Made by a program: the position numbers and the translations under genes. Below are positions 6,153 to 36,853 of a stretch of DNA of 45,753 nt, piece by piece. The notes below the pieces were generated by a model. It ran no database searches and was not told the DNA's origin. It was given only the letters and a program-made list of their open reading frames with translations. This DNA is from Burkholderiales bacterium (lineage in GTDB: Bacteria; Pseudomonadota; Gammaproteobacteria; Burkholderiales; SG8-39). How positions within the stretch are numbered: position 1 is the first letter of the stretch; each line of letters opens with the position of its first letter. The stretch covers positions 1-45,753 of the forward strand of contig JACZJV010000191.1 in NCBI GenBank assembly GCA_014860355.1, read 5' to 3'.

Positions 6153-6166
6153 GCAGGACCTTCACC

Positions 6167-7268: not shown

Positions 7269-8309
7269 ATGAATGCGGTGGCGACAGACGCGATCTTCAG
7301 CCTGCGCGGGCTGGAATGCCATTTCGTGCAGCCGCAGGACATGGTGGACAGGCTGGGGCGCCTGCTCAAAGGGCGCCCCGCACCCAATCCCGTTCAGGCT
7401 GTGGCCGGTATCGATCTGGACATCATCGCAGGTGAGGTCCTGGGCATAGTCGGCGAGTCGGGCTGCGGAAAATCGACGCTGGGGCGCATGCTGGCGGGGA
7501 TCCTGGAGCCTACGAAGGGCGAAATCCTGTACAAGGGCCGTTCGATTGCGGCACTCGATGCCGCCGCCCGCAGCGAATACGAGCTCGCCGTTCAGATGAT
7601 CTTTCAGGATCCCTTTTCTTCGCTCAATCCGCGCATGCGGGTGATCGACATCATCGGCGAGGCGCCGCTCGCGCATGGCATGATCACCCGCGCCGCCAAG
7701 GATGCCAAAGTGTGCGAGCTGATGCGCAAGGTGGGCTTGGATCCGGCCTACCGCTATCGCTACCCGCATCAGTTTTCAGGCGGACAAAGACAGCGTGTCG
7801 GCGTCGCACGCGCGCTGGCGTTGCGACCCTCGGTCATCGTATGCGACGAAGCGGTCGCGGCGCTGGATGTGTCCATACAGGCCCAGGTTCTCAATCTGTT
7901 TGCCGACCTGCGCGAGGAATTCGCGCTGACTTATTTCTTCATCAGCCACAATCTGGGTGTTGTCAGCCATATTTCGGATCGCGTGGCCATCATGTACCTG
8001 GGCAGGATTGTCGAAATCGCGCCGACCGAAACCATATTCAAGGCCGCCCATCATCCTTACACGCAGGCGCTGATCAAGGAATTGCCTACCCTGCACGCGG
8101 AGCGGCATGTGTTTGACCCGATCAAGGGCGAACTGCCTTCGCCCAGCGACCCGCCTGCAGGCTGTCCGTTTCATCCCCGTTGTCCGCAGGTCATGCCGCG
8201 CTGCCGCGAACATCGTCCGGTGCTCAAAGCGGTGGAGCGCAGTCCCGATGCGGCCTGGTCCGGGCAGTCTGCTCACCTGAGCGCCTGCCACTTGAATGAT
8301 GGCGCGTAA
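7269..8309 (+). CDS. Peptide-type ABC transporter ATP-binding protein, DppF-like
   Basis: Second ATPase of the importer (346 aa). ATG at 7269 follows GGAGGAG at good spacing. Walker A is [10 protein letters not shown] (61-70); the signature is [15 protein letters not shown]. Walker B reads [12 protein letters not shown], with Ala where most relatives have Pro (DEPVSALD); the catalytic Glu is kept, so it should still hydrolyse ATP. The C-terminal oligo_HPY part has [15 protein letters not shown]. An N-terminal insertion (about 22-43) before the strand preceding Walker A is typical of DppF/OppF. It works as a heterodimer with the DppD-like protein. Confidence 0.9.
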
Positions 8310-8364
8310 TTGCAGAACGATCACCGAATTCGTAGACGCCGTATTATTGCCAAGGAAGGTTTAA

Positions 8365-9228
8365 ATGAAAGTTGCTGATTCAGACTTCGATCCGTATTTG
8401 CTGTCCCTGCCCGCCGACAATGCGCTCCCGCTGGTGTGCGATTCGCCCCACAGCGGCGTAACCTATCCACGGGATTTCGGAAGCTGCCTGCCCGCGGCCA
8501 TCCTGCGCTCGGGCGAAGACACGTATGTGGAGGAGTTATGGCGGGCCATTCCCGCGGCGGGAGGCTGTCTATTGGCCGCCAGTTTCCCGCGCACTTACAT
8601 CGATCCAAATCGCGAGATCAGCGATATCGACGCGAGCATGCTCGATGCGCCCTGGCCGGCCGAAGTGCGCCCCTCGGAGAAGACGCGCCTGGGCAGCGGA
8701 CTGATCTGGCGGCTCGCCCGCAAGCAAGCGATGTACGACCGCAAGCTCCCGGTGGCTGAGGTTGAGAATCGCATCCGGCGTTTTCATCAACCCTATCATG
8801 CCGCACTGAGCCTGCAGATCGAGGCAGCCTATGCGAAATTCGGCGGCGTCTGGCATCTGAACCTGCACTCGATGCCGGCGAATTCCTACGAGTTGCTGGA
8901 GATCAAGACCGACAAGCCGCTGGCCGACTTCGTTCTCGGCGATCATGACGGGCGCACCTGCGATCCGGCACTGGTTAAGACCATCGAAACATTCTTGATC
9001 GGACGCGGCTATAGCGTGGCACGCAACGATCCGTTCAAAGGGGTGGCCCTGATCGCCCGCATAGGCCGCCCCGCCGAGAATCGTCATAGCCTGCAGATCG
9101 AGGTCAATCGCAAGCTTTACATGGACGAAAATACCTATGAGAAGTCGCAGGGCTTTGGCGACCTGCAGCAGTCCCTGAGTTTGCTGTCGGCGCACGTGGC
9201 AGAATTTGTCAAGGCGCAGCTGGCCTAG
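8365..9228 (+). CDS. N-formylglutamate amidohydrolase family protein
   Basis: Cytoplasmic hydrolase of the FGase family (PF05013), 287 aa, near the family's usual 260-290. AAGGAAGG precedes ATG at 8365. Family landmarks are CDSPHSG at 25-31, the YIDPNREISDID block, and HLNLHSMPANS in the middle, where conserved His and Glu residues are expected to bind metal. The classic member (HutG) splits N-formyl-L-glutamate to glutamate and formate in histidine breakdown. No other hut gene is here, so that role is not supported. Its position between a peptide-type importer and an M20 hydrolase suggests hydrolysis of an imported N-formyl or N-acyl amino acid (inference). Confidence 0.85.
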   Translation: MKVADSDFDPYLLSLPADNALPLVCDSPHSGVTYPRDFGSCLPAAILRSGEDTYVEELWRAIPAAGGCLLAASFPRTYIDPNREISDIDASMLDAPWPAEVRPSEKTRLGSGLIWRLARKQAMYDRKLPVAEVENRIRRFHQPYHAALSLQIEAAYAKFGGVWHLNLHSMPANSYELLEIKTDKPLADFVLGDHDGRTCDPALVKTIETFLIGRGYSVARNDPFKGVALIARIGRPAENRHSLQIEVNRKLYMDENTYEKSQGFGDLQQSLSLLSAHVAEFVKAQLA

Positions 9229-9301
9229 CCTTGTAACGAACACGATCGCGGTTTATCGAAATTACAATCCGCCGGAAAACGGCGCCTTTCAAGAGGCCAT
9301 C

Positions 9302-10498
9302 ATGACGCTATTAGCCGACATCGAACGCAATCACGAAGAACTTATCGCCATTCGCCGCGATATCCATGCCCACCCCGAACTTGCGTTTCAGGAAGAGCGG
9401 ACCTCGGCCCTTGTGGCCAGGCGCCTGAGCGAACTCGGGCTGGAAGTGCATACGGGTTTGGGCAAAACGGGTGTGGTCGGGGTGTTGCGAAAGGGCGCGG
9501 GATCGCGGTCCATCGGTTTGCGCGCCGACATGGATGCCCTGCCCATGCCGGAGAACAACCGTTTCGCGCATTGCTCGACGAACCCCGGCAAGATGCATGG
9601 TTGCGGCCACGACGGCCATACCACCATGCTTCTGGGAGCGGCCGGGTACCTGGCCAGGTTCGGAAAGTTCGACGGGGTGGTGAATTTCATTTTCCAGCCA
9701 GCCGAGGAAGGCGGCAACGCCGGCGCCAAGGCCATGATCGACGATGGCCTGTTCGAGCGCTTTCCATGCGACGTGATTTACGGCATGCACAATCTGCCGG
9801 GGATACCTACCGGTGTGTTCGGATTTCGTGCCGGACCGGCCATGGCCTCGAGCAACCGATTCGATATTGTGATCAATGGTGTCGGCGGCCACGCGGCGCA
9901 GCCGCACAAGTCGGTGGATCCCATCCTGATCGCTGCGGAAATGGTGCAGTCGCTGCAAAGCCTCATTACGCGCAACAAGGATCCGATCGACACGGCAGTC
10001 CTGTCGATTACGCAGATCCATGCGGGCGACGCCTACAACGTAATCCCGGCACAGGCGGTGATACGCGGCACGGTCAGGACCTACACGGTCGAGGTGCTCG
10101 ATCTTCTGGAGAACAATATGCGCCGCATCGTGACCAAACTCAGTGAAGCGCATGGGGCCAGCGGCGAGTTGCATTTCGTGCGCTGCTATCCGCCGCTGGT
10201 CAACTGGCCCGAGGAAACGGAGTTCGCTGCGAACCTGGCGGAGAAACTCTTCGGCGCAGATCATGTCGATCGTGCGACGCCGCAGCATTTGGGGGCCGAG
10301 GACTTCTCCTTCTACCTGGAAAAGGTGCATGGAACCTACCTGTTCATCGGCAACGGCATGGGCGATCACCGCGCGGATACCTATCACGGCATGGGGCCGT
10401 GCGAACTGCATAATTCCAACTACGATTTCAACGATGCCTTGCTACCCATCGGCGCGACGTACTGGAGCAAACTGGTCGAGGCTACGCTGACCGCGTAG
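9302..10498 (+). CDS. M20 family amidohydrolase (hippurate hydrolase-like)
   Basis: Metal-dependent aminoacylase/carboxypeptidase of the M20D type, 398 aa. AAGAGG precedes ATG at 9302. Visible metal and catalytic motifs are GLRADMDALP (72-81), MHGCGHDGH (98-106, with the Cys that M20D enzymes use as a metal ligand), QPAEEGG with the catalytic Glu, the dimerisation-domain block VGGHAAQPH, and LGAEDFSFY near the C-terminus. The family removes acyl groups from N-acyl amino acids (hippurate, N-acetyl amino acids, indole-acetyl conjugates). It ends the transporter operon, which supports uptake followed by deacylation of an N-acylated amino acid. The exact substrate is unknown. Confidence 0.9.
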   Translation: MTLLADIERNHEELIAIRRDIHAHPELAFQEERTSALVARRLSELGLEVHTGLGKTGVVGVLRKGAGSRSIGLRADMDALPMPENNRFAHCSTNPGKMHGCGHDGHTTMLLGAAGYLARFGKFDGVVNFIFQPAEEGGNAGAKAMIDDGLFERFPCDVIYGMHNLPGIPTGVFGFRAGPAMASSNRFDIVINGVGGHAAQPHKSVDPILIAAEMVQSLQSLITRNKDPIDTAVLSITQIHAGDAYNVIPAQAVIRGTVRTYTVEVLDLLENNMRRIVTKLSEAHGASGELHFVRCYPPLVNWPEETEFAANLAEKLFGADHVDRATPQHLGAEDFSFYLEKVHGTYLFIGNGMGDHRADTYHGMGPCELHNSNYDFNDALLPIGATYWSKLVEATLTA

Positions 10499-10670
10499 TC
10501 CGATATCCGGTGTGCATCGCGGACCCGGGCGTGGCGCGAAAGACGTCGATGTTGAGGGCGCTGCCCGGCAGAGGTACAACGGGCGGCGCGTGCTTTCCCT
10601 GGATAACCGCCTGAAGAATTGCGCCGATATTCACTCTCAGCGTGTTCGCCTCGCATTTTGGGATCCTCCG

Positions 10671-10706
10671 GGCGCGATTGCGATCGCGCCCGCACTGCGC
10701 TATCGT
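10671..10706 (+). promoter_or_regulatory. Palindrome overlapping a possible sigma-70 promoter before the M32 peptidase
   Basis: A perfect 8-bp inverted repeat with a 4-nt centre (GGCGCGAT-TGCG-ATCGCGCC, 10671-10690) overlaps TTGCGA (10678-10683), which lies 17 bp before TATCGT (10701-10706). The arrangement resembles an operator over a weak -35, 30 bp before the start codon. Both elements match consensus only partly. Confidence 0.35.
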
Positions 10707-10735
10707 GGCCCAGATGGATAAGGCCGCATAGTTCG

Positions 10736-12232
10736 ATGTCGCTGTCAGCTTACAGGCAGTTGCAGCAGCGCTTTGCGCGCCTGGGACGCCTGCGCGACGC
10801 GCAGGGCATCCTGCACTGGGACCGCTCAGTGATGATGCCGGCGGGCGGGGCCGACGGCCGGGCTGAACAACTCGCAACGCTGGATGTCATCTGCCACGAG
10901 ATGATCGCCGATCCCGAGGTCGGCGATCTGCTGGCGGCGGCCGAGGGCGAAACGCTGACCGACTGGGAGCGCGCCAACCTGCGCGAAATGCGCCGCGGCT
11001 GGATCCACGCCAGCGCGGTCGACGCGGCGCTGGTCGAAGCGAAGTCGCGCGCCTGCTCGGCCTGCGAAATGGCCTGGCGCGAGGCGCGCCCGCTGGCGGA
11101 TTTCGAGATGGTGCTCCCGTTCCTGGAAGAGGTGCTGCGGCTGACGATCGAGGTGGGGAAGGCCAAGGCGGTCCGCTTCGAAACCTCGGCATACGACGCG
11201 CTGCTCGATGAGTACGAGCCGGCCGCGCGCGCGGCCGACATCGATCCGGTGTTCGACGATTACGCCGGCTTCTTGCCGGATTTTCTCGACCAGGTGCTGG
11301 CGCGCCAGGCGCGCGAACCGGCCGTCATCGAATCGCGCGGCCCGTTTCCGGTCGAACGCCAGCGAGAACTCGGCCTTCGTGTCATGCAGATCCTGGGTTT
11401 CGATTTTCACCACGGGCGGCTGGACGTCAGCCTGCATCCGTTTACCGGCGGCGCGTCGGGGGATCAGCGCATCACCACGCGCTATAGCGAGGAGGATTTC
11501 AGCTCCTCGCTCATGGGCACCATCCACGAGACCGGGCATGCGCTCTACGAGCAGCACCTGCCCCGGGCCTGGCGCCATCAACCGGTAGGCGGTGCGCGCG
11601 GCATGGTGGTGCACGAAAGCCAGTCGCTGCTGATGGAAATGCAGGTTGCGCGCTCGCGGGAGTTTCTCTCGTTCGCAGCACCGGTGATGCGCGAGGCGTT
11701 CGGCGCACAGGCGGAAGACCGGGCATGGCAGCCGGATAACCTGTTGCGGCTGTACACGCGCGTTTCGCGCAGCTTCATCCGCACCGAAGCGGACGAAGTC
11801 ACCTACCCGGCACATGTCATCCTGCGCTACCGGCTCGAGCGCTCGCTGATTGCGGGCGATCTTCGCCTGCGCGATCTGCCGGGTGCGTGGAACGATGCAA
11901 TGAAGACGCTGCTCGGCGTGGTTCCGCCCGACGATCGCCTGGGCTGCCTGCAGGACATACACTGGTACGACGGCGCGTTCGGCTATTTCCCGACCTACAC
12001 GCTGGGCGCGATGGCTGCGGCGCAATTGTTCGACGCCGCGCGCAAGAGCATCCCCGGCTTGGCGACGGCGATGAGCGGCGGCGAATTCAAGCCGCTGGTC
12101 GATTGGCTCTGCGAAAACGTCCATGGCAAGGCCAGCTATCTATCGACCCGGGAGTTGCTCGCCGCCGCGACCGGGCGGCCGCTCGACCCGGCCGTTTTCA
12201 AGGCGCATCTCAAGGCGCGCTATCTGCACTAG
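10736..12232 (+). CDS. M32 family metallocarboxypeptidase (Taq-type)
   Basis: Zinc/cobalt carboxypeptidase of family M32, 498 aa (family about 500). It removes C-terminal amino acids from peptides in the cytosol. The metal-binding HETGH is at 264-268. Other M32 signatures present are HPF (234-236), GDQRITTRY (242-250) and RTEADEVTYPAH downstream, all in the expected order; LHWDR near residue 26 matches the N-terminal lid region. I took ATG at 10736 because the protein then starts at the family's normal N-terminus; the ribosome site is poor. It sits 237 bp behind the peptide-type importer operon and may be separately transcribed, but a role in peptide use fits both. Confidence 0.92.
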   Translation: MSLSAYRQLQQRFARLGRLRDAQGILHWDRSVMMPAGGADGRAEQLATLDVICHEMIADPEVGDLLAAAEGETLTDWERANLREMRRGWIHASAVDAALVEAKSRACSACEMAWREARPLADFEMVLPFLEEVLRLTIEVGKAKAVRFETSAYDALLDEYEPAARAADIDPVFDDYAGFLPDFLDQVLARQAREPAVIESRGPFPVERQRELGLRVMQILGFDFHHGRLDVSLHPFTGGASGDQRITTRYSEEDFSSSLMGTIHETGHALYEQHLPRAWRHQPVGGARGMVVHESQSLLMEMQVARSREFLSFAAPVMREAFGAQAEDRAWQPDNLLRLYTRVSRSFIRTEADEVTYPAHVILRYRLERSLIAGDLRLRDLPGAWNDAMKTLLGVVPPDDRLGCLQDIHWYDGAFGYFPTYTLGAMAAAQLFDAARKSIPGLATAMSGGEFKPLVDWLCENVHGKASYLSTRELLAAATGRPLDPAVFKAHLKARYLH

Positions 12233-18257: not shown

Positions 18258-19883
18258 TCAGGCGCTTCCGAGGCGTACACGCCTGACGATGACAATGGCG
18301 ACGATGGGTACGCACAGTCCGATGACGGTCGCCGCGATGAACAGCCAGCCGAGTTCACTGTAGTCCTGTGGCACTTTCACGACTCCGGTCGCGCGTTCCT
18401 TCACTTCCCGCGTCACCGAGAAGATCTGATTCAGGTATTTCGTGCCGAGCTGCGCAAGTGACAGCGCGAGATTGGTGAACGACGCCATCACGGCGAAGAA
18501 GGTCGCCTTGAGATTGGCGGGGGCGGAGTTGGCAATCCATGCGAGCATCGGAATCATGGCGATCTGGCCTAGCGGGGACTCCAGCGCTGTGTCGATCACC
18601 GCGATGAAGCGCGCGTCCACCACGCCCCCGGTCAGCGCCGCGGTCCACTGGTGCAGTCCGTAGTACATGCCCAGGGTCGGCAGGCTGAGCACGGTGCTCA
18701 CCACGGTCAGGAACACCACGACATAGGCGATCGAGTGATCGGCCATGAAGCGGCGGAAGACGAACATCCCGAACAGCGTCAGGGTGCTGGAGATGAGCGA
18801 AAGTTCGGCGAGAAACTGCTGGTCGAAGCCGAGCACGTCGATCATCCACCAGGTGGCGCCGGGCCCCGGTCCGGGCATTGCGCGATAGACGAAAATGATG
18901 ATGGCCGTGCCCAGCAGCAGGCGGCGCGCGTCCGGTTCCAGTTCGCGCATGAGCTTGAGCATCAGTAACGCGATGATCCCGAACGACCCCGCGAAAATGA
19001 TCTCCTGGTTGTACGGTACTTCGGCCAGGCCCATGCTCAGCGTGAACGCGACGAACGCGAGGCTGCCGCCGAGGATCCACCAGTTCGGATGCGGCCGCTC
19101 GTGCGGGCCGCCCGCCATCGCGAGCGCCTGCCGCCAGGCGTAGCCCTGCGCGCGCAGCGAGCGCGCGTGGCGCATTTTCAGCCAGCCGCCGAGCATCACG
19201 CCCAGCACCGAAACGACGGGAATCGCCAGCGCGTACTGGTAGATGCGGATGTAGACCGCAACCTTGTCGGCGTCGCTCATCTGCTCGACGCCGCTGAACA
19301 GCGTCACGTTCGCCAGCGCCACTGCGACCGATCCGCCGATGATCGCCACGCGCCCCAGCGTCTGCATCGTGGTGTGCATGAGCTTGAGCGAGGCGGCATC
19401 GATGGGCCGCCCCCCGGCGTCGATGCGCGGGACGGCTTCGACCGTCATCGCGTCCGCGACCACGTCCTGCACCACATAGCCCACGGGCGCGAGCAGCGCG
19501 CTCAATACAAACCAGGCCTCGGCTTGCATCGTCTGGCGCATCAATTCCGGTGAGGCCAGCAAGCCGATCATGATCGCGAGGCTCGCCGCGATCAGACCCG
19601 CTCCCAGAAACACCAGGCCGGACTTCCAGCGCCAGATGAGGTCCACGAGATGCCCCAGCGGCATTTTCAGCGCCCAGGGGATGCCCGCCCAGAAGCCGAG
19701 CGCGGCGAGAAATTCCGCCGAAAGGCCGATGTGCTCCTTGACGAAAAAGGTGCCGACGATACCCGTCAGCCCGGAGACGCCGGCAGCCACGTAGACCATC
19801 AGCGGCGGCAGGAACGACAGGCGCATCTCGCGCCCGAGCTCGAATATATTGCGGTCGACCCAGCGGTAGGCCGCGGCGATCAA
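18258..19883 (-). CDS. BT1/MFS-type multi-helix transporter
   Basis: Inner-membrane transporter, 541 aa from TTG 19883, with about 12 hydrophobic segments. The early block GLSAEFLAALGFWAGIPWALK resembles folate-biopterin (BT1) transporters of the major facilitator superfamily, as does the general length. The TTG overlaps the UPF0280 stop in TTGA, continuing the pattern of 4-bp overlaps along this operon. An in-frame ATG at 19826 is an alternative start that removes 19 residues. As the last gene of the hydroxylase/reductase operon it probably moves the heterocyclic substrate or product. BT1 relatives carry pteridines and folates, which would fit an N-heteroaromatic ligand, but the assignment to BT1 is by eye. 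Confidence 0.75.
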   Translation of the reverse strand: MIAAAYRWVDRNIFELGREMRLSFLPPLMVYVAAGVSGLTGIVGTFFVKEHIGLSAEFLAALGFWAGIPWALKMPLGHLVDLIWRWKSGLVFLGAGLIAASLAIMIGLLASPELMRQTMQAEAWFVLSALLAPVGYVVQDVVADAMTVEAVPRIDAGGRPIDAASLKLMHTTMQTLGRVAIIGGSVAVALANVTLFSGVEQMSDADKVAVYIRIYQYALAIPVVSVLGVMLGGWLKMRHARSLRAQGYAWRQALAMAGGPHERPHPNWWILGGSLAFVAFTLSMGLAEVPYNQEIIFAGSFGIIALLMLKLMRELEPDARRLLLGTAIIIFVYRAMPGPGPGATWWMIDVLGFDQQFLAELSLISSTLTLFGMFVFRRFMADHSIAYVVVFLTVVSTVLSLPTLGMYYGLHQWTAALTGGVVDARFIAVIDTALESPLGQIAMIPMLAWIANSAPANLKATFFAVMASFTNLALSLAQLGTKYLNQIFSVTREVKERATGVVKVPQDYSELGWLFIAATVIGLCVPIVAIVIVRRVRLGSA

Positions 19884-20767
19884 CGCAATTCGCCGGCGGC
19901 GCGCCGCGCACCCGGTTCGAGGAAGGAAGTTGCCGGCAAGACCGCACACACTTCGCCCTGCAAGGCGAGATAGGCGGCGTGAATCAGACCCTGCCGCTGC
20001 AATTCGCGCGCGCATGCGCGCCCCCGGGCGAGCGCTGCTGCCCGGACGCAGGCGGGCAGGGCGCCGACGCCAACCGTGACCGGCAAATCGCCCAGATCGC
20101 TGTCCTCCCGCAATGCGCGCGCCGGCATCCTGGTGATGGCCGGGTGCTCGGCGTCGACGGCATTGGCGATCATGGTGGCCGCGGCATCGGCGCTGGCCGC
20201 ATCGGCGGCGAAAGCGCTAACCGCGTCGGCGATGCCCAGCGACTGCGAGCGGCCGCGCCACCCCGAGGTCGCCAGGCCGCGCACCGGCAGCGCCGCCTCC
20301 AGCGTGACCGTGGCGTCGATGGCGGGGTTGCCGGCATTGTTGACCACGCCCAGCGTGAGCGACTGGCCTCGCGCCAGTTGCAGCGCGATGTCACCGCCGT
20401 TGTTGACGTAGGTCTTTTGCAGATCGCGATCCCTCAGCATGGCCTGGAGGATTTCGTCGGCGACGCTGCCCGCGACCGCCGCCATGGGCGTGATATAGGC
20501 GGCGCGATGCGGCCAGCAGGCCGCGAGCATGCGCCGCGCCACCGGTCCTTGCAGCAGGGGATAGGCCCCGCCCAGGGGGGCGCGCAACTGCGCCAGTTCC
20601 TGTACCAGCACTTCGAGTATGTCGCCGAAGCGCGCGCTGGCCTGCCGGTATGCACTTTCGACCTCGGCGCGCTCGCCCCAGGCCTGGATGATCAGATCGA
20701 TGGGCCCGTGCTGCAGGTGCAGGCGCCCGTCGGCGAAGAGCGCCGCGCGCGGGCCGTTGGAACTCAA
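19880..20767 (-). CDS. UPF0280 (ApbE-like) family protein
   Basis: 295 aa. The blocks TPMAAVAGSVADEIL (93-107) and YVNNGGDIALQL (120-131) are the UPF0280 signature. The NNGGDI stretch corresponds to the NxGGDI motif of ApbE, the FAD:protein FMN transferase, so a flavin-binding or flavin-transferring role is likely by fold. The start ATG 20767 overlaps the stop of the reductase-like gene by 4 bp, and the end overlaps the transporter start. 6-hydroxynicotinate reductase of Eubacterium barkeri is reported to carry covalently bound flavin, so this protein may flavinylate the neighbouring reductase-like protein (inference). Confidence 0.8.
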   Translation of the reverse strand: MSSNGPRAALFADGRLHLQHGPIDLIIQAWGERAEVESAYRQASARFGDILEVLVQELAQLRAPLGGAYPLLQGPVARRMLAACWPHRAAYITPMAAVAGSVADEILQAMLRDRDLQKTYVNNGGDIALQLARGQSLTLGVVNNAGNPAIDATVTLEAALPVRGLATSGWRGRSQSLGIADAVSAFAADAASADAAATMIANAVDAEHPAITRMPARALREDSDLGDLPVTVGVGALPACVRAAALARGRACARELQRQGLIHAAYLALQGEVCAVLPATSFLEPGARRAAGELR

Positions 20768-22248
20768 GTCAGATCCTTGGTCAGCGGCCAGGGATTTTCG
20801 TCGCGCCAGCGCTGGTTGACGTAGGCCGACTTTTGCAGGACTTCTTCGACCGAGACTACGCGGCCGGCGTAGCCGCCCAGTGCGGCATAGCGGTCCAGGC
20901 GCAGGGTGAATTCAATCGGTGCAACGATGGCCGGGGTGGGCACGTAGCCGAACGAACGTTCGGGCATGCGCGTCACGTCGACCATGAACGTAATTCCGCC
21001 GCCCGGCCAAACGTACACCGGCGCGCCGCCGCTGGTGACGCGCGTCAGCGCCGCCTTTACCGACTGCGTCAGCCGCACCGGGTTCTCGGTGATGCCGGCG
21101 CGCAGGCTGCCGCCGGCGCCGGCCATGAACAAGACCGTGCATAGCGCCGGTTCGCAGTTCTCGGCGATGCGCTCGACGACCTTGGTGATCGCCTGCGGCA
21201 TTTCAGCCGGCTGGGGCTGCAGGTCCTGGTCGAGCACGAACCAGGCCGAGTGCTCGCCCGTGGTCGAAACCATCAGCAGGCGCATGCCCGGCCACGCGGT
21301 CCCGGGATCGATCTTCTCGATGATGGAAAGTGGATCGGTGAGCTTGGTGCCGCCCCAGCCCAGGCCGGGCTCGGATACCTGAAAGTAGCGCCCCGGCGTG
21401 GAGCGCTTGCCGCGTATCTTTATACCGGATGGGCGCATGTCGAGAAACTTCCCCGCCTGGTGCTCGGACAGGACCCCGGTGATGTGATCGTCGACGACGA
21501 TGACTTCATCGGCATGGCCTATCCATTGCGGCGCGAATATGCCGATGGTGGCCGAGCCGCAGCCGACGCGCATGCGCGTTTCGGCGACGCCGTTGACTAT
21601 GGGCGCCTTGCCCGCCTGCACCAGCACGCTGGAACCGCCTTCTATCACCAGTTCCACCGCCTCCTTGTTGCACAGCTTCAGCAGCGCATCGCAGGTGACT
21701 CGGCCCTGCTTCTTGCCGCCGCCGGTCAGATGGTGCACGCCGCCGACAGAGAGCATCTGCGAGCCGTATTCGGCCGTGGTCACGTGGCCGACCTGCTCGC
21801 CGTCCACGCGCACCGGCGCCTGTTCCGGACCGAGATAGCGGTCGGTGTCGATTTTCAGTTTTACGCCGCAGTAGCTGAAAATGCCCTCGGTGACCACGGT
21901 CACCATGTCCACGTCCTCGACCCTGGAGGACACGATGAAGGGCGCGGGTTTGTAGTCGGGATAGGTGGTGGTGGCGCCGACGCCGGTCACGAATACCTGC
22001 GTATCCGGCAGCAGGCTGCCGTCCCACTCCCGGTCCAGAAACTTCACCAGTTTCACCTCCGGCTTCTGTGTGATCACCAGCGGATCGACCCGCGTGAGTT
22101 TGCCCTCGACATTGGTATAGCGGTCGCAGGCGCCGAAGTCGTTCGGCTTCACCAGGCACAGCACCGGGCAGGCATCGCAGCGTATGCCCTTTGCATCCTT
22201 CGCCTTCGGGCTATCGACGACCTCGCCCTCGTAAGTGTCTTCGCGCAT
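20764..22248 (-). CDS. 6-hydroxynicotinate reductase-like iron-sulfur protein
   Basis: 494 aa. The N-terminus carries C24-x2-C27-x3-C31-x9-C41 (RCDACPVLCLVKPNDFGACD), a likely 4Fe-4S site. Further Cys occur in FSYCG, VTCDALLKLC and RVGCGSATIG. The body matches what I know as the 6-hydroxynicotinate reductase (Hnr) family, whose founding enzyme reduces 6-hydroxynicotinate to 1,4,5,6-tetrahydro-6-oxonicotinate using low-potential electrons. It is coupled by 4-bp overlaps to the molybdenum hydroxylase before it and the UPF0280 gene after it. This is the natural order for hydroxylation followed by ring reduction. The downstream enamidase of the nicotinate route is not in the window, so the real substrate may differ. 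Family call from memory of sequence style. Confidence 0.7.
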   Translation of the reverse strand: MREDTYEGEVVDSPKAKDAKGIRCDACPVLCLVKPNDFGACDRYTNVEGKLTRVDPLVITQKPEVKLVKFLDREWDGSLLPDTQVFVTGVGATTTYPDYKPAPFIVSSRVEDVDMVTVVTEGIFSYCGVKLKIDTDRYLGPEQAPVRVDGEQVGHVTTAEYGSQMLSVGGVHHLTGGGKKQGRVTCDALLKLCNKEAVELVIEGGSSVLVQAGKAPIVNGVAETRMRVGCGSATIGIFAPQWIGHADEVIVVDDHITGVLSEHQAGKFLDMRPSGIKIRGKRSTPGRYFQVSEPGLGWGGTKLTDPLSIIEKIDPGTAWPGMRLLMVSTTGEHSAWFVLDQDLQPQPAEMPQAITKVVERIAENCEPALCTVLFMAGAGGSLRAGITENPVRLTQSVKAALTRVTSGGAPVYVWPGGGITFMVDVTRMPERSFGYVPTPAIVAPIEFTLRLDRYAALGGYAGRVVSVEEVLQKSAYVNQRWRDENPWPLTKDLT

Positions 22249-25004
22249 CAGCGGGTCTCCATCAGTTTCAGCGCCGCGCGCAGCCGGTGCGGCAGCACCG
22301 GCACCTGGCGCATGCGCACACCGGTGGCGTGGTTAATCGCGCCCAGTATCGCCGGCGCGGTAGGAATGAGTCCGGGCTCGCCCACGCCTTTCGCACCCGA
22401 GGGACCCAGGGGTTCGGCATCCTCGATCAGGATGCATTTCATCTCGGGGATGTCGCCTATGGTCGGGATCAGGTAATCATGCAGGTTCTCGGTCCGGCCG
22501 GGCAGGTATTCTTCCATCAGGGCGAGGCCCAGCCCCTGCATGGTGCCGCCGTGAATCTGGCCTTCGACCTGGATCGGATTGATGGCCTTGCCCACATCAT
22601 GCGCCGCGACGATCTCCAGCACCTTTACCGTGCCCAGTTCGCAGTCGACTTCGACCAGCGCAAGTTGCGCGGCGAACGCGTAGGTGGCATAGGGCACGCC
22701 CTGGCCGTCGGCATCCTGCGGGCTGGTGGGCGGATCGAAGCTGCCCTCGCCGCGCAGCACGTCCACGCCCTGGCGCGGCGCCAGCCAGGCGAGATCGTAT
22801 TGGTGCTCGCCCTGCGCGTCCGTCGCCTTGATCAGGCTGCCCTCGAGACTAAGCAGCGCATCGGGAGCAGCCTCGAGCAATTGCAGCAGCTTGCGCCGCA
22901 AGTCGCGCGCCGCAAGCTCGACCGCCTTGCCCGAAACGAAAGTCTGGCGCGAAGCCGAGGTCTTGCCCGCGTCCGCGGTGAGGTCGGTGTCGCCCATGAC
23001 GATACGAAACTCGCCCATCGGCAACCCGAGGGCGTCGGCCGCAATCTGGGTCATGATGGTGTTCGATCCCTGGCCGATGTCGACGGCGCCGTTGTACAGC
23101 GTCAATTCGCCCTTGGCGGACAGGCCGATGCGCATGGTCGAGGGATTGGAGAGCGCGGTGTTGCCTATGCCGTACCACATGCAGCCTATGCCGGCGCCGC
23201 GCCGCTTGTACGCTGAAGTCTTGTTGTAAGCGGTGCAGGCGGCGAGCGCCTTGTCCCAATGCGGTTTCAACGCGTCCAGGCACTGCGGCAGGCCGGCCGA
23301 ATGCGCCAGGACCTGCCCTGTCGCCGTGGCATCGCCCGCTTTGAGCGCATTCAGACGGCGGAAGGCGAGCCGGTCCATGCCCAGCTTGTCGGCCAGCTCG
23401 TCCATCATCGCCTCGTGCGCAATCGCACCCTGGGGCACGCCGAAACCGCGGAAGGCGCCCGAAGGATGGCAGTGCGTGAAAAAAGCGCGGCCGCGTGCAG
23501 TGACATGCGGCACGCAGTAGGGGCCGCTTGCATGGATGGGCACGCGCGTGGCCACCGTCGGCCCCCAGCTCGCGTAGGCGCCGGTGTCGAAGTCGGCTAC
23601 GGTTTCGATCGCGACCAGCCTGCCGCTGGCATCGCAGCCCGATTTGATGCGGATCTGCGAGGGGTGGCGCTTGGTGCTCGAAGCCATGCTCTCGGGCCGG
23701 GTATAGATGCAGGCGACCGGTTTGCCGAGCAGCCAGGCGGCGACGCCGATCAGCGGCTGCACCGACAGATCGAGCTTGCCGCCGAAACCGCCGCCGCAAG
23801 CGGTCGGCACGATGCGGATCTGCTCGCGCGCGAGTTTCATCACCAGCGCCATCTCGTCGCGGTCCATGTAGGGCGTTTGCGTAGTGACGTGTACCTCCAG
23901 TCGGTCGCCCAGGCGCTCGGCCCAGCCCGCCTCGGGCTCGATATAGGCGTGTTCGACGAAGCCGGTTTCGAACGTGGCTTCGGCGACAGCGGCGCAGTGC
24001 GCAAACGCAGCGGCCGCATCGCCTTTTCTCACCCAGCCGTCGAGCAGCAGGTTGCCCGCCTTGTCCGCCTGCACCAATGGGGCGCCCGGCGCCGCCGCCG
24101 CAGCTATACCCATGACCGGCGGCAATGGCGTATAGCGGATCGGCAGTTCGGCCTCGTCCACCGCCTCGATCGCGGCGCGCGTGCCGACCAGTGCGAGTAC
24201 GGCCTCGCCGCGAAAACGCACCACGCCATCGGCCAGCACCGGCTGATCCTTGATGTGCGGATAGATGCCGAAGCCGTTGCTGGGTACGTCGCGCGCGCTG
24301 AGCACCCGTTCCATGCCCGGGCGCGCGGCGGCGTAGGCCGCTAGGTCGCCCAGTTCGAAGGATGCGTGATGGTAGGGCGAGCGCGCCACGCGCAGCCACA
24401 AGGCGCCGGCGGGTATGCCGTCGGCGCCGTAGCGTTCCTCACCGGTGAGCTTGGCCACGCCGTCGACTTTCGGCGCGCGCGCGCCTATCGCCGCGCCGGC
24501 AGCCGGCGGGGGCGGGAGTTGCGCCGTGGCCGCGTCCAGCACCGCCTCGATGATTTTCTGGTAACCAGTGCAGCGGCAGAGCACGCCGCCCAGCGCGTCT
24601 TTTACTTCCGCGGCGCTGGGCCGTCGATTTCGCGCCAGCAGGTCGGCCGCGGCGACGAGCATGCCGGGGGTGCAAATGCCGCATTGCGCCGCACCGTGCT
24701 TTTGAAACGCCCGCTGCAGGCCGGAGAGCCTGCCGCCGGCGGCCAGGCCCTCCACCGTGGTCACCTCGCGCCCGTCTGCCTGCGCGACCGCGGTAAGGCA
24801 GGAACATACCTGTCGTCCGTCGATCAGGACAGTGCAGGCGCCGCAGTCGCCTGCGTTGCAGCCTATCTTGGTGCCGGTAAGGCCCAGGTCGTCGCGCAGT
24901 ACGTCCGCGAGCCGCTTGGCGGGATTGCCCGAAAATTCGCGCGCCTGGCCGTTGACGACAAAACATATCGTCTGGGCGCCGGACTGCGTGCGCGGCCGGT
25001 TCAT
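22248..25004 (-). CDS. Xanthine dehydrogenase-family hydroxylase, fused 2Fe-2S and molybdopterin subunits
   Basis: 918 aa, molybdenum hydroxylase that adds oxygen from water to an N-heterocycle or aldehyde. Residues 1-150 form the small subunit: plant-type 2Fe-2S site C49/C54/C57/C69 (CNAGDCGACTVL) and second site C108/C111/C143/C145 (CGICTPG, CRCTGY). The rest is the molybdopterin subunit with GGGFGGKLDL, AFRGFGVPQG and the C-terminal GVGEPGLIPTAPAI holding the catalytic Glu. The usual architecture is separate small and large subunits; here they are one chain. ATG at 25004 overlaps the FAD-subunit stop (ATGA), and the frame further upstream is a shadow. Substrate unknown. The Hnr-like neighbour suggests a nicotinate-like or other pyridine/purine ring. 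Confidence 0.9.
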   Translation of the reverse strand: MNRPRTQSGAQTICFVVNGQAREFSGNPAKRLADVLRDDLGLTGTKIGCNAGDCGACTVLIDGRQVCSCLTAVAQADGREVTTVEGLAAGGRLSGLQRAFQKHGAAQCGICTPGMLVAAADLLARNRRPSAAEVKDALGGVLCRCTGYQKIIEAVLDAATAQLPPPPAAGAAIGARAPKVDGVAKLTGEERYGADGIPAGALWLRVARSPYHHASFELGDLAAYAAARPGMERVLSARDVPSNGFGIYPHIKDQPVLADGVVRFRGEAVLALVGTRAAIEAVDEAELPIRYTPLPPVMGIAAAAAPGAPLVQADKAGNLLLDGWVRKGDAAAAFAHCAAVAEATFETGFVEHAYIEPEAGWAERLGDRLEVHVTTQTPYMDRDEMALVMKLAREQIRIVPTACGGGFGGKLDLSVQPLIGVAAWLLGKPVACIYTRPESMASSTKRHPSQIRIKSGCDASGRLVAIETVADFDTGAYASWGPTVATRVPIHASGPYCVPHVTARGRAFFTHCHPSGAFRGFGVPQGAIAHEAMMDELADKLGMDRLAFRRLNALKAGDATATGQVLAHSAGLPQCLDALKPHWDKALAACTAYNKTSAYKRRGAGIGCMWYGIGNTALSNPSTMRIGLSAKGELTLYNGAVDIGQGSNTIMTQIAADALGLPMGEFRIVMGDTDLTADAGKTSASRQTFVSGKAVELAARDLRRKLLQLLEAAPDALLSLEGSLIKATDAQGEHQYDLAWLAPRQGVDVLRGEGSFDPPTSPQDADGQGVPYATYAFAAQLALVEVDCELGTVKVLEIVAAHDVGKAINPIQVEGQIHGGTMQGLGLALMEEYLPGRTENLHDYLIPTIGDIPEMKCILIEDAEPLGPSGAKGVGEPGLIPTAPAILGAINHATGVRMRQVPVLPHRLRAALKLMETR

Positions 25005-25840
25005 GCGCGCGCCCCCAATTCGTTCAGCACGCGCCGCACCAGGACGAGGCCTGCATCCAGCCTGTATTCGCGGCTGGCGCGCACATCGTCTATGGGGGTC
25101 AGCGCGGCCAGATGTTCCGCCTTCGCGTGTTCGCCCAGCTGCGCCGCGCAGCGCCGGCCGATTAGCGCGGCCTCGAGCAGGGGCAGGCGCTGCGCCATTT
25201 CCGAGGCTGCGCCCAGCGCTACCCGTGCCGCGCACACGCGCCCGGACTCGAGCTCCAGCGTGGCCGCGGCCATTACGATGGAGACCACGAGGTATTTGCG
25301 TGCGCCCAGCTTGGCGAAGTGACTGCGCGCCGGATGCGCCGGTTTCGGAATCAGGATCGCGCTCAGCAGTTGGTCCGGCCGCAGCACAGTCCGGCGATTG
25401 CCGAGGATGAATTCGTCCAGCGCAAGGCTTGCGCTGCCGGCGATATCGGCGATTTCGACGCGCGCATCGAGTGCCAGCAGCGCTGGCACGCCGTCGGCGG
25501 CGGGCGAGGCGTTACACAGATTGCCGGCGATGGTGCCGGCGTTCTGGATCTGCACGCCGCCGATTTCGCGCGCGGCGAGTTTCAGGCCGTCGAACAGCGG
25601 CGGCAGCTCGGCGGCGATGAGTTCGCTCCAGCTGGTGGTGGCGCCGATGCGCCAGTGGGCGCCATCGTCGCGTATGCCGCGCAGGCCGGCGATGGCGCTG
25701 ATGTCGAGGATGTCGTCCGTAAGCGGCTTGCCCACCCTGGAAGGATAGTAATCCGTTCCGCCCGCCAGTACAGTCAAGCTGCCTTGCGCGAGTGCGGCGA
25801 CGGCTTCGGGCAGGCTGGTGGGGCGCAGGTAGCTGGGCAA
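25001..25840 (-). CDS. FAD-binding subunit of molybdenum hydroxylase (CoxM/NdhF-like)
   Basis: 279 aa flavoprotein that passes electrons from the 2Fe-2S centres to an acceptor. FAD-binding blocks are VLAGGTDYYP (about 24-33) and NAGTIAGNLCNASPAADG (about 100-117), followed by the CO_deh_flav_C-type C-terminal domain (KLGARKYLVVSIVMAA onwards). There is no extra 4Fe-4S insertion. First gene of the five-gene minus-strand operon; its stop overlaps the hydroxylase start by 4 bp. I find no strong promoter in the gap upstream. Confidence 0.9.
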   Translation of the reverse strand: MPSYLRPTSLPEAVAALAQGSLTVLAGGTDYYPSRVGKPLTDDILDISAIAGLRGIRDDGAHWRIGATTSWSELIAAELPPLFDGLKLAAREIGGVQIQNAGTIAGNLCNASPAADGVPALLALDARVEIADIAGSASLALDEFILGNRRTVLRPDQLLSAILIPKPAHPARSHFAKLGARKYLVVSIVMAAATLELESGRVCAARVALGAASEMAQRLPLLEAALIGRRCAAQLGEHAKAEHLAALTPIDDVRASREYRLDAGLVLVRRVLNELGARA

Positions 25841-32731: not shown

Positions 32732-33331
32732 TCAGTAACCGCCAGCGGGAATGCGCACTTTCGCGCGAGAGGACGGCACTGTCGAACCATTCTCCTGAAA
32801 TAGCGCGCGGTACGCGGACTGGCGCGCTGCGGCGTCGCGTCCGAGGGCGCAGTAGTGCGCGTGCGGCGTCAGCAGCGCGTCGTCCTGGCCCTGCGCATTC
32901 GCGCGGAAGCTCGACCAGCGATACTGTCCCGGCTGCGCAACCACGCGGGCGCGCACCGGGTTGAGTTCGATGTAGCGCATGCAGTAAAGCAGGTAGCGCC
33001 CGACATGGACTGTGGAGGCTTGGTAGCAGTCGTCCCAAAGCGCGCCGTCGCGGTGATAGTTCGCGCCGATGTAAGCCGCGTGGCGTTCGCGCAGCGAGCG
33101 CATCAGGTTCGCGACGCCTCCGGCGCACGAAGGCGTGAGGAGCAGGTGCACATGGTTGCCCATCAGCACGTAGGCATGCACAGAGCAGGCATAGCGTGCT
33201 GCGTACCCGCCGAGCCAGGCCAGGTATTCGACGCAGTCCTCTGTGCCGAAGAAACATGCCGAGCGCTGACGGCCGCGCAGGATCACATGCAGCGTGTGGC
33301 CGGGCGTTTCGAGACGAACGGGGTGTGGCAT
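32732..33331 (-). CDS. REP-associated tyrosine transposase (RAYT, Y1_Tnp)
   Basis: 199 aa single-domain Y1 HUH nuclease of the TnpA-REP type. The metal-binding HVH is at 60-62 (LMGNHVHLLL), and RHAAYIGANYHRDGALWDDCYQAS (split 84-106) and YIELNPVRA (120-128) are the RAYT hallmarks; the nucleophilic Tyr is probably Y116 or Y120. ATG at 33331 matches the family start PVRLETPGHTLHVILRG. These domesticated transposases act on REP palindromes; no convincing GTAG-headed REP flanks it here. It sits 35 bp upstream of the toxin gene on the same strand. Confidence 0.9.
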   Translation of the reverse strand: MPHPVRLETPGHTLHVILRGRQRSACFFGTEDCVEYLAWLGGYAARYACSVHAYVLMGNHVHLLLTPSCAGGVANLMRSLRERHAAYIGANYHRDGALWDDCYQASTVHVGRYLLYCMRYIELNPVRARVVAQPGQYRWSSFRANAQGQDDALLTPHAHYCALGRDAAARQSAYRALFQENGSTVPSSRAKVRIPAGGY

Positions 33332-33478: not shown

Positions 33479-36400
33479 CTAATGAAAATCCCGCGAACTC
33501 GTCGTCAAGCGGCCCAGCAGCTCACTGTGATCCGCAAGCCTTCTCGCGATCACATGCACTACTGCGCCTTCGCGTTCGACCGATCCATAGACCGCCATCA
33601 GCTGCGCCGAGAGCAGTTCGCGCCGTTGCCGCTCGCCGAGGTCGCGCCAGACGATGACATTGACGCAGCCGGTTTCATCTTCGAGGGTCACGAACACCAC
33701 GCCGGAAGTGGTGTCGGGGCGCTGCCTGCCGATGACGATGCCGGCCACGCGCACGCTGGCCCCATGCGGCAGGCGGCGGACGTCTGCGGCGGCGGCGAGC
33801 CGCATGCGCGCGAGGCGCGAGCGCAGCAGCGCCAGCGGATGCCGGCCCAGGGTGAGCCCGAGGCTCGCGTAATCGGCGACGAGGCCGTCGCCTTCGCTCG
33901 GCGCGGAGAGCTGCGGATCAGCTTCATGGACCGGGGCTTCGCGCAACAAGTGCTGCGCGGTTTCCACGCCTGCGACCTGCCAGTAGGCGAGCCGCCGGTG
34001 GCCGGCGATGCCCACGAGCGCGTCGCCCGCGGCGAGGCATTTGAGTTCATGCCGGTCCAGATGCGCGCGGCGCATCAGTTCCTCGACCGAAGCGAAGCCG
34101 CTCTGCACGCGCGCCTGCACGATGCGCATGGCTGCGGCCTCGGACAGGCCTTTCACCATGGCGAGGCCGAGGCGCACGGCGGGCGCACCGTTTGCATCGG
34201 GCTCCAGCGTGCACTCCCAGCCGCTTTTCAGCACGTCCACCGGCCGCACTTCGACACCGTGGCGGCGCGCATCCTGCACCAGTTGCGAGGGCGCATAGAA
34301 ACCCATGGGCTGGCTGTTCAGGAGCGCGGCGAGGAAAGCGGCGGGGTGGTGGCGCTTCAGCCATGCGGAGACGTAGACCAAGAGGGCGAAGCTCGCCGAA
34401 TGCGATTCGGGAAAACCGTATTCGCCGAAGCCTAGGATCTGCTGGTAAATGCGTTCGGCGAATTCGCGCGCATAGCCGCGCGCCAGCATGCCCTGGATCA
34501 GGCGCAGCTCAAGGTGTTCCAGGCCGCCTTTTCTTTTCCACGCCGCCATCGAACGGCGCAGGCCATCGGCCTCCCCCGGGGTGAAGCCGGCGGCGACCAC
34601 CGCGAGCTGCATCACCTGCTCCTGGAATATCGGTATGCCCAGGGTGCGTGCCAGCACCTCCCTGACCGCGTCGCTCGGATAGCTCACCGCCTCCAGTCCC
34701 TGGCGGCGGCGCAGATAGGGATGCACCATGCCGCCCTGGATCGGGCCGGGGCGCACGATCGCGACTTCGATCACCAGGTCGTAGAAATTCGCCGGTTTCA
34801 GGCGCGGCAGCATGGACATCTGCGCGCGCGATTCGATCTGGAACACGCCCACGGTATCGGCCTGCTGGATCATGGCGTAGACGGCGGGGTCTTCCGCCGG
34901 CACCTCGCTCATCGCAAAGGCTGCGCCTTTCTGCTCGCTGATCAGGGCGAGCGCGCGCTTGATCGCGGAGAGCATGCCCAGCGCCAGCACGTCCACTTTG
35001 AGCAGGCCCAGCGCATCGAGGTCGTCCTTGTCCCACTGGATCACGCTGCGATCGATCATGGCGGCATTTTCGATCGGCACCAGGCGCGATAGCAGGCCGC
35101 GCGCAACGACGAAGCCGCCTACATGCTGCGACAGATGGCGCGGAAAGCCGAGCAGCGCATCCACCAGCGCAAGCAGGCGCACTATGGTCGGGCTGGCCGC
35201 GTCGAACCCGGCTTCGCGCAGGCGCTCGGGCAGATTCTGGCGCCGGTCCCGCCAGGAAAGCGTCTTTGCCAGCCGCTCCACCTGATCCAGCTCCAGGCCC
35301 AGCGCCTTGCCGCAGTCGCGGATCGCGCTCTTCGGCCGGTAGCGGATCACCGTCGCAGCGAGCGCCGCGCGCTCACGCCCGTACTTGGCGTAAATGTACT
35401 GGATCACTTCTTCGCGCCGCTGGTGCTCGAAATCGACGTCGATGTCGGGCGGTTCGTTGCGTTCGCGCGATATGAAGCGCTCGAACAGCATGCTCATGCG
35501 CGCCGGATCGACTTCGGTGATGCCCAGGGCGTAGCACACCGCCGAATTCGCGGCCGAACCCCGGCCCTGGCAAAGAATATTCCGGCTGCGCGCGAAGCTG
35601 ACGATGTCGTGCACGGTGAGGAAGTAGGGCTCGTAGCCCAGTTCGGCGATCAGTTCGAGTTCGTGTTCGACGAGGGTCCGGACCTTCTGCGGCACGCCCT
35701 CGGGAAAGCGCCGCGCAAGGCCCGCCCGGGTGAGCGCGCGCAGATGCTGCGCAGGCGTGACACCGGGCGGCGCGATTTCTTCGGGGTATTCGTAGCGCAG
35801 GCAGTCGAGGGAAAAGGAACAGTGCGCGGCGATGCGCAGGGTTTCATCCAGCAGTTCGCGCGGATAGAGATTGGCCAGGCGCAGGCGCAGGCGCAGATGG
35901 CGCTCGGCGTTCGGATAGAGCGCGTGACCGCACTGCGCCACCGGCTTACAAAGGCGTATCGCGGTGAGCGTGTCCTGCAGCCTGCGCCGCGAGCGCAGGT
36001 GCATGTGCACATCGCCCGCGGCTACCAAGGGCAGACCGCAGGCCGCGCCGAATTGGCGCAGCGCTGTCAGGCGCGCGCGGTCGTCGGGTCCGCAGAGCAG
36101 TTCCGCGGCGATCCAGGCGCGCGCGGGAAAACGCTCGGCGAGCCAGCGCGCGTGTGCAACAGCGGGTAGGGCACCCGGCACGAGCAGGGCCAGGCAGCCG
36201 GGTAAGCCCTGATCGAGGTCTCTTGTCTCCAGGGCATAGCGGCCCTTCACGCCGCGGCGCCTGCCGCGGGTGATGAGTTCGGACAGGTCGCCGTAACCAT
36301 CGCGGTCGGTGGCGAGCAACACGAGCTTGGGGCCATCGGCGAGCCGGATTTCGCTGCCGAGTATCAGCGGCAGGCCGCATTCCCTGGCGGCGGCATGCGC

Positions 36401-36568
36401 GCGCACTACGCCGGCGAAGGAGCATTCATCGGTTATGGCGAGCGCGCCATAGCCGAGCTGATGCGCGCGGGCGACGAGTTCCTCCGGGTGCGATGCGCCG
36501 CGCAGGAAACTGAAATTCGACAGGCAATGCAGCTCCGCGTAGGCGGGGAGGGTGCCGTGTTCTGTCAT
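33479..36568 (-). CDS. dnaE2: Error-prone DNA polymerase III alpha subunit DnaE2 (ImuC)
   Basis: 1029 aa translesion C-family polymerase of the SOS mutagenesis cassette. N-terminal PHP domain ([21 protein letters not shown], split over 10-30). Palm with [12 protein letters not shown] (334-345) and the catalytic acidic block [10 protein letters not shown] (373-382). Helix-hairpin-helix region, then an OB-fold near the C-terminus ([23 protein letters not shown]). There is no beta-clamp-proximal extension beyond the OB-fold, typical of DnaE2 versus the 1160-aa replicative DnaE. ATG at 36568 matches the family start; the longer frame upstream reads through a palindrome. It follows imuA-imuB on the same strand with a 285-bp gap. 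Confidence 0.95.
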
Positions 36569-36853
36569 TGCGGGGAGCGGACTTGCGCGCTGCGCGCGCC
36601 AACCGTGTTTTCTGTACGGATAAAAGACATCCGTACAGAAAACACGGTTACGATAAAAACAAGGACAGCGCGGGGTTTTATGCAAGATCGGCGATCCGCG
36701 CGGACGGTTTTTCGTCCGCGCAACATCGCAACTCTGCAACGACGAAGGGCGCGATTCAGGTCGCCGCGTACGGCAGCAGATTCCTCGCGTAGTCTATTGC
36801 CAGAAGGCGATTTGAAATAAAAAATGCTGGCCGAGTGGTATTGCAATTGATCC
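36569..36853 (-). other. Intergenic leader between imuB and dnaE2
   Basis: 285 bp. Besides the perfect inverted repeat it has a GCGCGC-rich hairpin between the repeat and the ATG (about 36583-36600). I find no CTGT-N8-ACAG box, so dnaE2 may depend on read-through from the LexA-controlled imuA promoter. Confidence 0.5.
36601..36649. repeat. Perfect inverted repeat, 21-bp arms, in the dnaE2 leader
   Basis: Arms 36601-36621 and 36629-36649 are exact reverse complements around a 7-nt loop (AAAAGAC). Each arm contains CTGTACGGAT or its complement. It lies 33 bp upstream of the dnaE2 ATG, so it would form a 21-bp hairpin in the mRNA leader, or a DNA operator. It is not a standard terminator: no U-tract follows on either strand. 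CTGT and ACAG are 19 bp apart, not the LexA spacing of 8. Confidence 0.85.

Follow-up and report, generated by a model that had tools for sequence, protein, structure and literature searches.

A probable nicotinate-route operon of a Burkholderiales bacterium in which a UPF0280 protein accompanies a 6-hydroxynicotinate reductase-like protein

The genome of a Burkholderiales bacterium (assembly GCA_014860355.1) carries, on contig JACZJV010000191.1, a row of genes for a two-chain molybdenum hydroxylase, an iron–sulfur protein resembling 6-hydroxynicotinate reductase (HNR), a UPF0280/COG2122 protein and a BT1-family transporter. We analysed this contig, hereafter the window, over all of its 45,753 nucleotides; it is one of 202 contigs of a 5.09-Mb genome that is 99.17% complete. 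A preliminary description drawn from the DNA alone had reported five minus-strand open reading frames at 18258-25840, and all five are present over that span:

25001-25840, minus strand: flavin adenine dinucleotide (FAD) subunit of a molybdenum hydroxylase (279 amino acids, TTG start; Pfam FAD_binding_5 at 129.2 bits and CO_deh_flav_C at 59.7 bits, both above cut-off).
22248-25004, minus strand: fused 2Fe-2S/molybdopterin hydroxylase chain, the proposed nicotinate 6-hydroxylase (918 amino acids, ATG start; Fer2, Fer2_2, Ald_Xan_dh_C, MoCoBD_1 and MoCoBD_2 above their Pfam cut-offs).
20764-22248, minus strand: HNR, a 6-hydroxynicotinate reductase-like iron–sulfur protein (494 amino acids, ATG start; similar to annotated plasmid proteins).
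19880-20767, minus strand: UPF0280/COG2122 protein, proposed to mature HNR, as its flavin transferase or otherwise (295 amino acids, TTG start; NCBIfam model NF003322, co-occurrence with HNR, ApbE-like fold and profile match).
18258-19883, minus strand: BT1-family transporter, a clade-specific addition to the operon (541 amino acids, TTG start; Pfam BT1 at 50.4 bits, cut-off 22).

All four junctions had been described as 4-bp overlaps. That is correct for three: the FAD subunit and the hydroxylase chain overlap by ATGA, and HNR/UPF0280 and UPF0280/BT1 each by TTGA, the latter two resting on assumed TTG starts (TTG is the start codon in three of the five genes). The hydroxylase chain and HNR overlap by 1 bp only (TGATG). 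Promoter searches gave the chance level (1 match, 1.4 expected), and terminator searches came close to it (6 matches against a mean of 4.1, standard deviation 2.3). The family names given for the hydroxylase, BT1 and UPF0280 are all backed by domains or models above Pfam or NCBIfam cut-offs. The HNR-like name rests on sequence homology: homologues at 61-69% identity occur in 26 plasmid records, 17 of them annotated as 6-hydroxynicotinate reductase and the others hypothetical or unannotated, and no Pfam or NCBIfam family scored above its cut-off on the protein.

We compared 74 loci: the window, 39 related loci, three of 26 plasmid HNR regions, and HNR regions from 31 other genomes. Those genomes come from a sample of 398 Pseudomonadota genomes, in which 32 carry HNR with the window's own counted. 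Among the loci compared, none of different origin share HNR at 98% identity or more. Seventeen of the 32 HNR genomes belong to two genera (g110 with nine, g117 with eight), and the Fisher tests below are uncorrected for such kinship. The HNR count drops matches in G020 and G305 (E about 4e-4), and the UPF0280 count drops G293 and G373, which fell below cut-off. Marker counts exclude two loci (L100 and L119); the identity thresholds, 45% for enamidase and 40% for HyuA, were set by us, and HyuA and HyuB from another contig of the same genome, C118, were added to the window's row by hand.

The closest HNR relatives found are in metagenome-assembled genomes of Burkholderiales/Betaproteobacteria. 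The order FAD subunit, molybdopterin chain, HNR, UPF0280 is kept in 42 of the 74 loci, window counted. The expectation that all five genes would recur together in other genomes thus held for four of them and failed for BT1, which was found in three loci only: the window, L002 and L003, the HNR proteins of the latter two being 94% identical to the window's. BT1 is a local addition to the operon. It scored 27.3 bits against the folate/biopterin transporter model TIGR00788, below the cut-off of 216.4.

The most informative member of the operon is the UPF0280 protein, to which the preliminary description gave no role. It scored 366.9 bits against a cut-off of 290 with NF003322, a model described simply as 'hypothetical protein'; plasmid annotations are the source of the name UPF0280. 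UPF0280 exceeded the cut-off in exactly the same 32 of the 398 genomes as HNR. Of the 69 loci with both genes, 67 have HNR and UPF0280 as adjacent markers, and two (L007 and L123) have a single marker gene between them. The five loci without UPF0280 (L004, L006, L036, L037 and L038) lie on contigs that end inside HNR or no more than 70 bases after it. Among plasmids, 26 records contained HNR and 27 contained UPF0280, with all 26 in common. We propose that UPF0280 serves HNR as a dedicated accessory protein. In one genome (G386, C28:9639-10463) the UPF0280 gene has one in-frame TGA, from either assembly error or decay.

We then asked what the fold of this protein resembles. Its predicted model is confident (predicted local distance difference test score, pLDDT, 92.5), and its best structural match by Foldseek was the COG2122 structure 2o34 (DVU1097; E 3e-11). 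The next matches were ApbE/Ftp structures, from E 3.8e-5 (4ifu, probability 1.00); the template-modelling score of 0.52 and root-mean-square deviation of 7.6 to 4ifu mark UPF0280 as a diverged version of the ApbE fold. Profile comparison with hhalign gave E 1.6e-5 and a probability of 79% over a segment that spans the GG-[acid], ATSG and ADxxAT motifs, the ApbE profile being built from 39 of 46 ApbE loci taken by open reading frame. The Pfam family PF02424 (ApbE) did not reach its cut-off on the window protein (11.2 against 25.6 bits), and 20 of 30 UPF0280 members matched it weakly, at best with E 6.5e-4. Two conserved motifs align with those of ApbE:

20390-20404, minus strand: UPF0280 N-x-G-G-D motif, residues 122-126 (N122, G124, G125 and D126 invariant in 30/30; paired by hhalign with ApbE ExGGE).
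20174-20188, minus strand: UPF0280 D-x-x-x-T motif, residues 194-198 (D194 in 30/30, T198 in 29/30; aligned with ApbE ADxxAT).

The ApbE ADxxAT residues are metal ligands. By profile and predicted fold, then, UPF0280 is a diverged relative of the ApbE flavin transferases. Canonical ApbE was not found in 13 of the 32 HNR genomes, the window's included: 12 had no match, and G159 was counted with them because its only match lies inside the UPF0280 gene itself. The HNR of Eubacterium barkeri was reportedly purified with a covalently bound flavin. The pairing with HNR, the likeness to ApbE, the genomes lacking ApbE and this flavin, taken together, make UPF0280 the best candidate for the attachment of flavin to HNR.

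UPF0280 could instead serve HNR as an accessory of another kind, in iron–sulfur cluster assembly or in persulfide or sulfur trafficking, as has been proposed for its COG2122 relative MA1715. Excerpts of PMC5764234 and PMC12068725 link MA1715/COG2122 of Methanosarcina to sulfide assimilation and homocysteine synthesis, and excerpts of PMC5764234 name HcyBio (DUF39) as the COG2122 partner in the latter. HNR has many conserved cysteines, so a maturation factor may be needed. HcyBio, however, occurred in 0 of the 398 genomes, and no cysteine is conserved among 30 UPF0280 sequences (the best column reaches 14/30); both disfavour a sulfur or homocysteine role here. The ApbE-like fold also speaks against it, and we give this alternative perhaps one chance in four.

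The HNR protein itself offers several places where a flavin might be attached. The first of the following features is a probable cluster site, and the other two are candidate segments for attachment:

22126-22179, minus strand: HNR N-terminal cysteine motif, residues 24-41 (C24, C27, C31, C41), a probable 4Fe-4S site judged by cysteine conservation.
21937-21987, minus strand: HNR loop, residues 88-104 (TGVGATTTYPDYKPAPF), with T94/T95 as a candidate flavin attachment site (conserved; role putative).
21088-21108, minus strand: HNR residues 381-387 (SLRAGIT), with T387 as a second candidate attachment site (conserved; role putative).

In a 30-sequence set, which was not selected by the loop motif, Cys 31, 41, 127, 186, 230 and 365 are invariant (30/30), and Cys 24 and 27 are present in all 27 sequences that reach them. 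T94, T95, Y96, P97, D98, Y99 and K100 are likewise invariant in 30/30, though residues 91-100 are modelled with pLDDT below 50. The segment at 381-387 comes closest in form to the core of the ApbE target, [ST]-G-A-[ST]: S-L-R-[AS]-G-[VIA]-T is kept in 67 of 68 sequences, with exact SGAT in two and V in place of T in one. Further candidates are residues 229-234, GCGSA[TA] with T in 63 of 68 sequences, and STT at 328-330. The segment counts use 68 of a set of 97 sequences, picked by the motif TTYPDYKP, in which some genomes appear twice. The predicted model of HNR is of moderate quality (pLDDT 75.6), and Foldseek returned no solved structure for it at E 1e-3.

Two side observations concern the same protein. 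Residues 129-163 (window 21760-21864) match PF08669, the C-terminal barrel of the glycine cleavage T-protein, weakly in 30/30 sequences; the window's HNR scored 21.3 bits against a cut-off of 25.9, and Foldseek also lists T-proteins weakly. In G016 (C1:2969823-2971261) and G322 (C4:345225-346649) HNR is split into two matches, by assembly error or decay.

We next considered import and ring opening. At the left end of the window lie two genes of a Liv-type ATP-binding cassette (ABC) importer:

1138-2367, minus strand: Liv-type ABC substrate-binding protein (91% identity to that in the L002 HNR locus).
2-1042, minus strand: Liv-type ABC permease, truncated where the contig ends (corresponding to residues 1-346 of its homologue in L002; residues 340-619 are on C118).

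Liv-type substrate-binding genes occur in 34 of the 74 HNR loci. The remainder of the permease is on contig C118, along with ATPase genes, HyuA and an incomplete HyuB. The preliminary description had found no later pathway enzyme in the operon, which is true of the operon itself; C118, with its candidate HyuA/HyuB, overlaps the left end of the window (75 bases, 93% identity). HyuA/HyuB of the relatives are hydantoinase A/B proteins, of the ATP-dependent lactam hydrolase family, and since 1,4,5,6-tetrahydro-6-oxonicotinate (THON) is a lactam, its opening by HyuAB would be chemically reasonable. The window contains no enamidase and in that respect departs from the THON pathway. Of the 74 loci, 25 had HyuA and 18 had enamidase, and none had the two together (Fisher p 3e-4); in the 32-genome sample the counts were 9, 11 and 0 (p 0.013). 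The two ring-opening modules thus replace one another among the sampled loci.

This exclusion holds per locus and not per genome, because two enamidase-like paralogues lie elsewhere in the window's genome (C160 and C187). If these paralogues opened the ring, HyuA and HyuB could be unrelated to the pathway, which we think possible at roughly a quarter's weight. Both genes are 41% identical to the enamidase of L011, and each lies next to an AA_synth gene. The locus-level exclusion argues the other way, as does the HyuA of C118 (88-89% identical to that of the HNR locus L010; 89% in the comparison made for this point). We regard HyuA/HyuB as most likely the ring-opening candidate in this genome, judged by these sequence comparisons.

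The surroundings of the paralogues deserve separate mention. Two similar modules of an enamidase-like amidohydrolase, AA_synth (PF06684) and a DHDPS-family protein lie on C187 and C160 (L120:759-4969, L121:8082-12306 and L121:13788-15811); a Liv-type importer, a fumarate-reductase-like flavoprotein and a 2Fe-2S protein are encoded close by (the Pfam search covered the C160 copy). To us the modules resemble two copies of one pathway, directed at some other lactam. AA_synth (PF06684, DUF1185) is present in 46 of the 74 HNR loci, often as two genes in tandem (for example L011:12426-13588 and L103:16290-17455), and has solved structures (3byq and 2qtp). Its members may catalyse another step of the THON route.

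Which ring enters the pathway is indicated by the hydroxylase and its neighbours. The FAD, 2Fe-2S and molybdopterin domains, all above family cut-offs, place the enzyme among the xanthine dehydrogenase-family molybdenum hydroxylases. Both chains fell below every NCBIfam cut-off for the named subfamilies (xanthine, CO, aldehyde and 4-hydroxybenzoyl-CoA), the top score of the hydroxylase chain being to Se-dependent xanthine dehydrogenase (575.4 bits, cut-off 830.45). Related HNR loci exchange one hydroxylase for another: 51 of 74 have the FAD-molybdopterin type and 16 have NicB, none has both, and seven have neither, some of these being cut by contig ends. NicAB is cytochrome-linked, and nicA/nicB are annotated as nicotinate dehydrogenase in one plasmid record. 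Full-length HNR proteins from the 398 genomes, whether encoded with one type of hydroxylase or the other, are 61-75% identical to the window's. Nicotinamidase occurs in 14 of the 74 loci (the single copy scanned scored 189.2 against an NCBIfam cut-off of 174), and in a comparison of the L011 enamidase homologue with solved structures, enamidase 2vun matched at E 1.5e-112. A nicotinate-degradation cluster of the THON type is published for Azorhizobium caulinodans/Bradyrhizobiaceae (PMC3511419, in excerpt). The preliminary description saw hydroxylation and then reduction of an N-heterocycle, which fits all of this, and left the ring wide open as pyridine, purine or pteridine. The exchange with NicAB, the nicotinamidase and enamidase neighbours and the published cluster instead point to nicotinate rather than a purine or pteridine; by this sequence comparison, nicotinate or a closely related compound is the most probable substrate.

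We infer the following substrates, order of steps and flavin attachment. The Liv-type importer, perhaps helped by BT1, would take up nicotinate or a relative. The FAD subunit and the fused chain would hydroxylate nicotinate to 6-hydroxynicotinate, which HNR would reduce to THON. HyuA/HyuB, apparently encoded downstream, would open the THON lactam here, as enamidase would in other lineages. UPF0280, presumably a cytosolic ApbE-like flavin transferase, would attach the covalent flavin to HNR. We consider this overall reading, a THON-route operon with UPF0280 as the flavin-attaching accessory of HNR, to be likely. The operon most likely encodes the two initial reactions of the THON route already known, and not a new ring pathway.

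Several observations weigh against parts of this reading. The Hydrogenophaga BPS33 plasmid has UPF0280 without HNR. UPF0280 lacks the ApbE catalytic His, the segment SH-x-I-DP being replaced by GRSxSLGI, and the catalytic role of that His is described in excerpts of PMC12052999. For this reason we put the attachment of the HNR flavin by UPF0280 at about an even chance. The full ApbE target motif D-x-x-[ST]-G-A-[ST] occurs in 0 of the 97 HNR sequences. Of the 398 genomes, 109 have no ApbE above cut-off; with such absence common in the phylum, the HNR genomes that lack it show no more than that HNR can do without canonical ApbE. C118 is tied to the window by the short inexact overlap alone; a search for an exact overlap between the two contig ends found none, so the link is likely but not certain. 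Neither enamidase nor HyuA is present in 31 of the 74 loci. Among relatives, electrons could be supplied through a ferredoxin-NADP-reductase-like gene (18/74) or a 2-oxoacid:ferredoxin-oxidoreductase-like gene (7/74); neither was seen at the window locus, the rest of the genome not having been searched for them.

The complete co-occurrence and near-constant adjacency with HNR would be equally expected if UPF0280 were a structural or catalytic subunit of the reductase and not a maturation enzyme, but the ApbE-like fold and the conserved NxGGD, ATSG and DxxxT motifs suggest an FAD- or metal-dependent enzyme, and we judge the subunit explanation improbable. Least probable of all is that the operon acts on a pterin, a purine or another pyridine, as the below-cut-off likenesses of BT1 to folate/biopterin transporters (TIGR00788) and of the hydroxylase chain to Se-dependent xanthine dehydrogenase might hint, given that BT1 is confined to 3 of 74 loci, that NicAB takes the hydroxylase's place next to HNR proteins of the same 61-75% identity, and that nicotinamidase and enamidase are neighbours.

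The Hydrogenophaga sp. BPS33 plasmid is of interest in its own right. It contains four UPF0280 matches, two of which, in the fetched stretch, sit in IS1071-associated modules; there (L100:1126-19483) the UPF0280 modules are repeated, together with a Rieske oxygenase, a PDR/VanB reductase and tripartite transporter proteins.

With UPF0280 read as an HNR flavin transferase, a broader idea presents itself, to which we give slightly less than an even chance: UPF0280/COG2122 may be a second, cytosolic flavin transferase lineage without the ApbE His, with one iron–sulfur client per subfamily, HNR in Pseudomonadota and possibly DUF39/HcyBio in the homocysteine or related sulfur biosynthesis of anaerobes. 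If true, it would explain both the covalent flavin that HNR is said to carry and the COG2122 requirement in homocysteine synthesis. The uncharacterised UPF0280/COG2122 family gains a testable function through its tie, without exception in 398 genomes, to one iron–sulfur reductase that is reported to carry covalent flavin. The THON route appears modular, with a choice of two hydroxylases and of two ring-opening enzymes, and this modularity would improve the annotation of vitamin and pyridine degradation. Three points seem to be new, namely the strict pairing of HNR with UPF0280, the proposed flavin-transferase role of the latter and the swap between enamidase and HyuAB: the parts of the open-access literature searched (subscription papers lay mostly outside the search) contained no proposal of any of them.

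Elsewhere in the window, between the Liv importer and the HNR operon (2622-12232), lie a gene for an SBP_bac_5 binding protein, then transporter-like open reading frames, and also an N-formylglutamate amidohydrolase, an M20 peptidase and an M32 carboxypeptidase. A DNA polymerase III alpha gene (33479-36568), an ImpB/MucB/SamB-family protein and a weak SulA match stand in a row at 33479-38939, which we take to resemble the ImuA-ImuB-DnaE2 mutagenesis cassette. An IS200-like transposase gene (32732-33331) lies near this row.

The arrangement can be compared with several known systems. The nicotinate fermentation cluster of E. barkeri, reportedly the subject of Alhapel 2006, is likewise said to have a molybdenum hydroxylase followed by HNR, and enamidase homologues (2vun-like) occur in loci related to ours. 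The E. barkeri hydroxylase has four subunits according to excerpts of PMC10331938, whereas the window encodes an FAD subunit and one fused chain, and has no enamidase. The ApbE/Ftp flavin transferases share their fold and the GG-[acid], ATSG and ADxxAT motifs with UPF0280; in contrast to them, UPF0280 falls below the PF02424 cut-off and has no catalytic His, and HNR has no full target motif. COG2122 proteins of Desulfovibrio (DVU1097, 2o34) and Methanosarcina (MA1715) belong to the same wide family, but they act with DUF39/HcyBio in homocysteine synthesis (PMC5764234, in excerpt), a partner found in none of the 398 genomes here. HyuA/HyuB of the relatives share the hydantoinase A/B families with 5-oxoprolinase and with caprolactamase CapA/CapB, an ATP-dependent lactam hydrolase (excerpts of PMC8453981); compared with caprolactamase, the L008 and L016 proteins scored 511.9 and 307.3 bits, below the equivalog cut-offs of 1000. 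The THON cluster of A. caulinodans/Bradyrhizobiaceae, as far as excerpts of PMC3511419 describe it, has an HNR homologue in common with the window, which differs in having HyuAB apparently downstream instead of enamidase and BT1 within the operon. The operon belongs to a known pathway, of which it represents a less-described variant.

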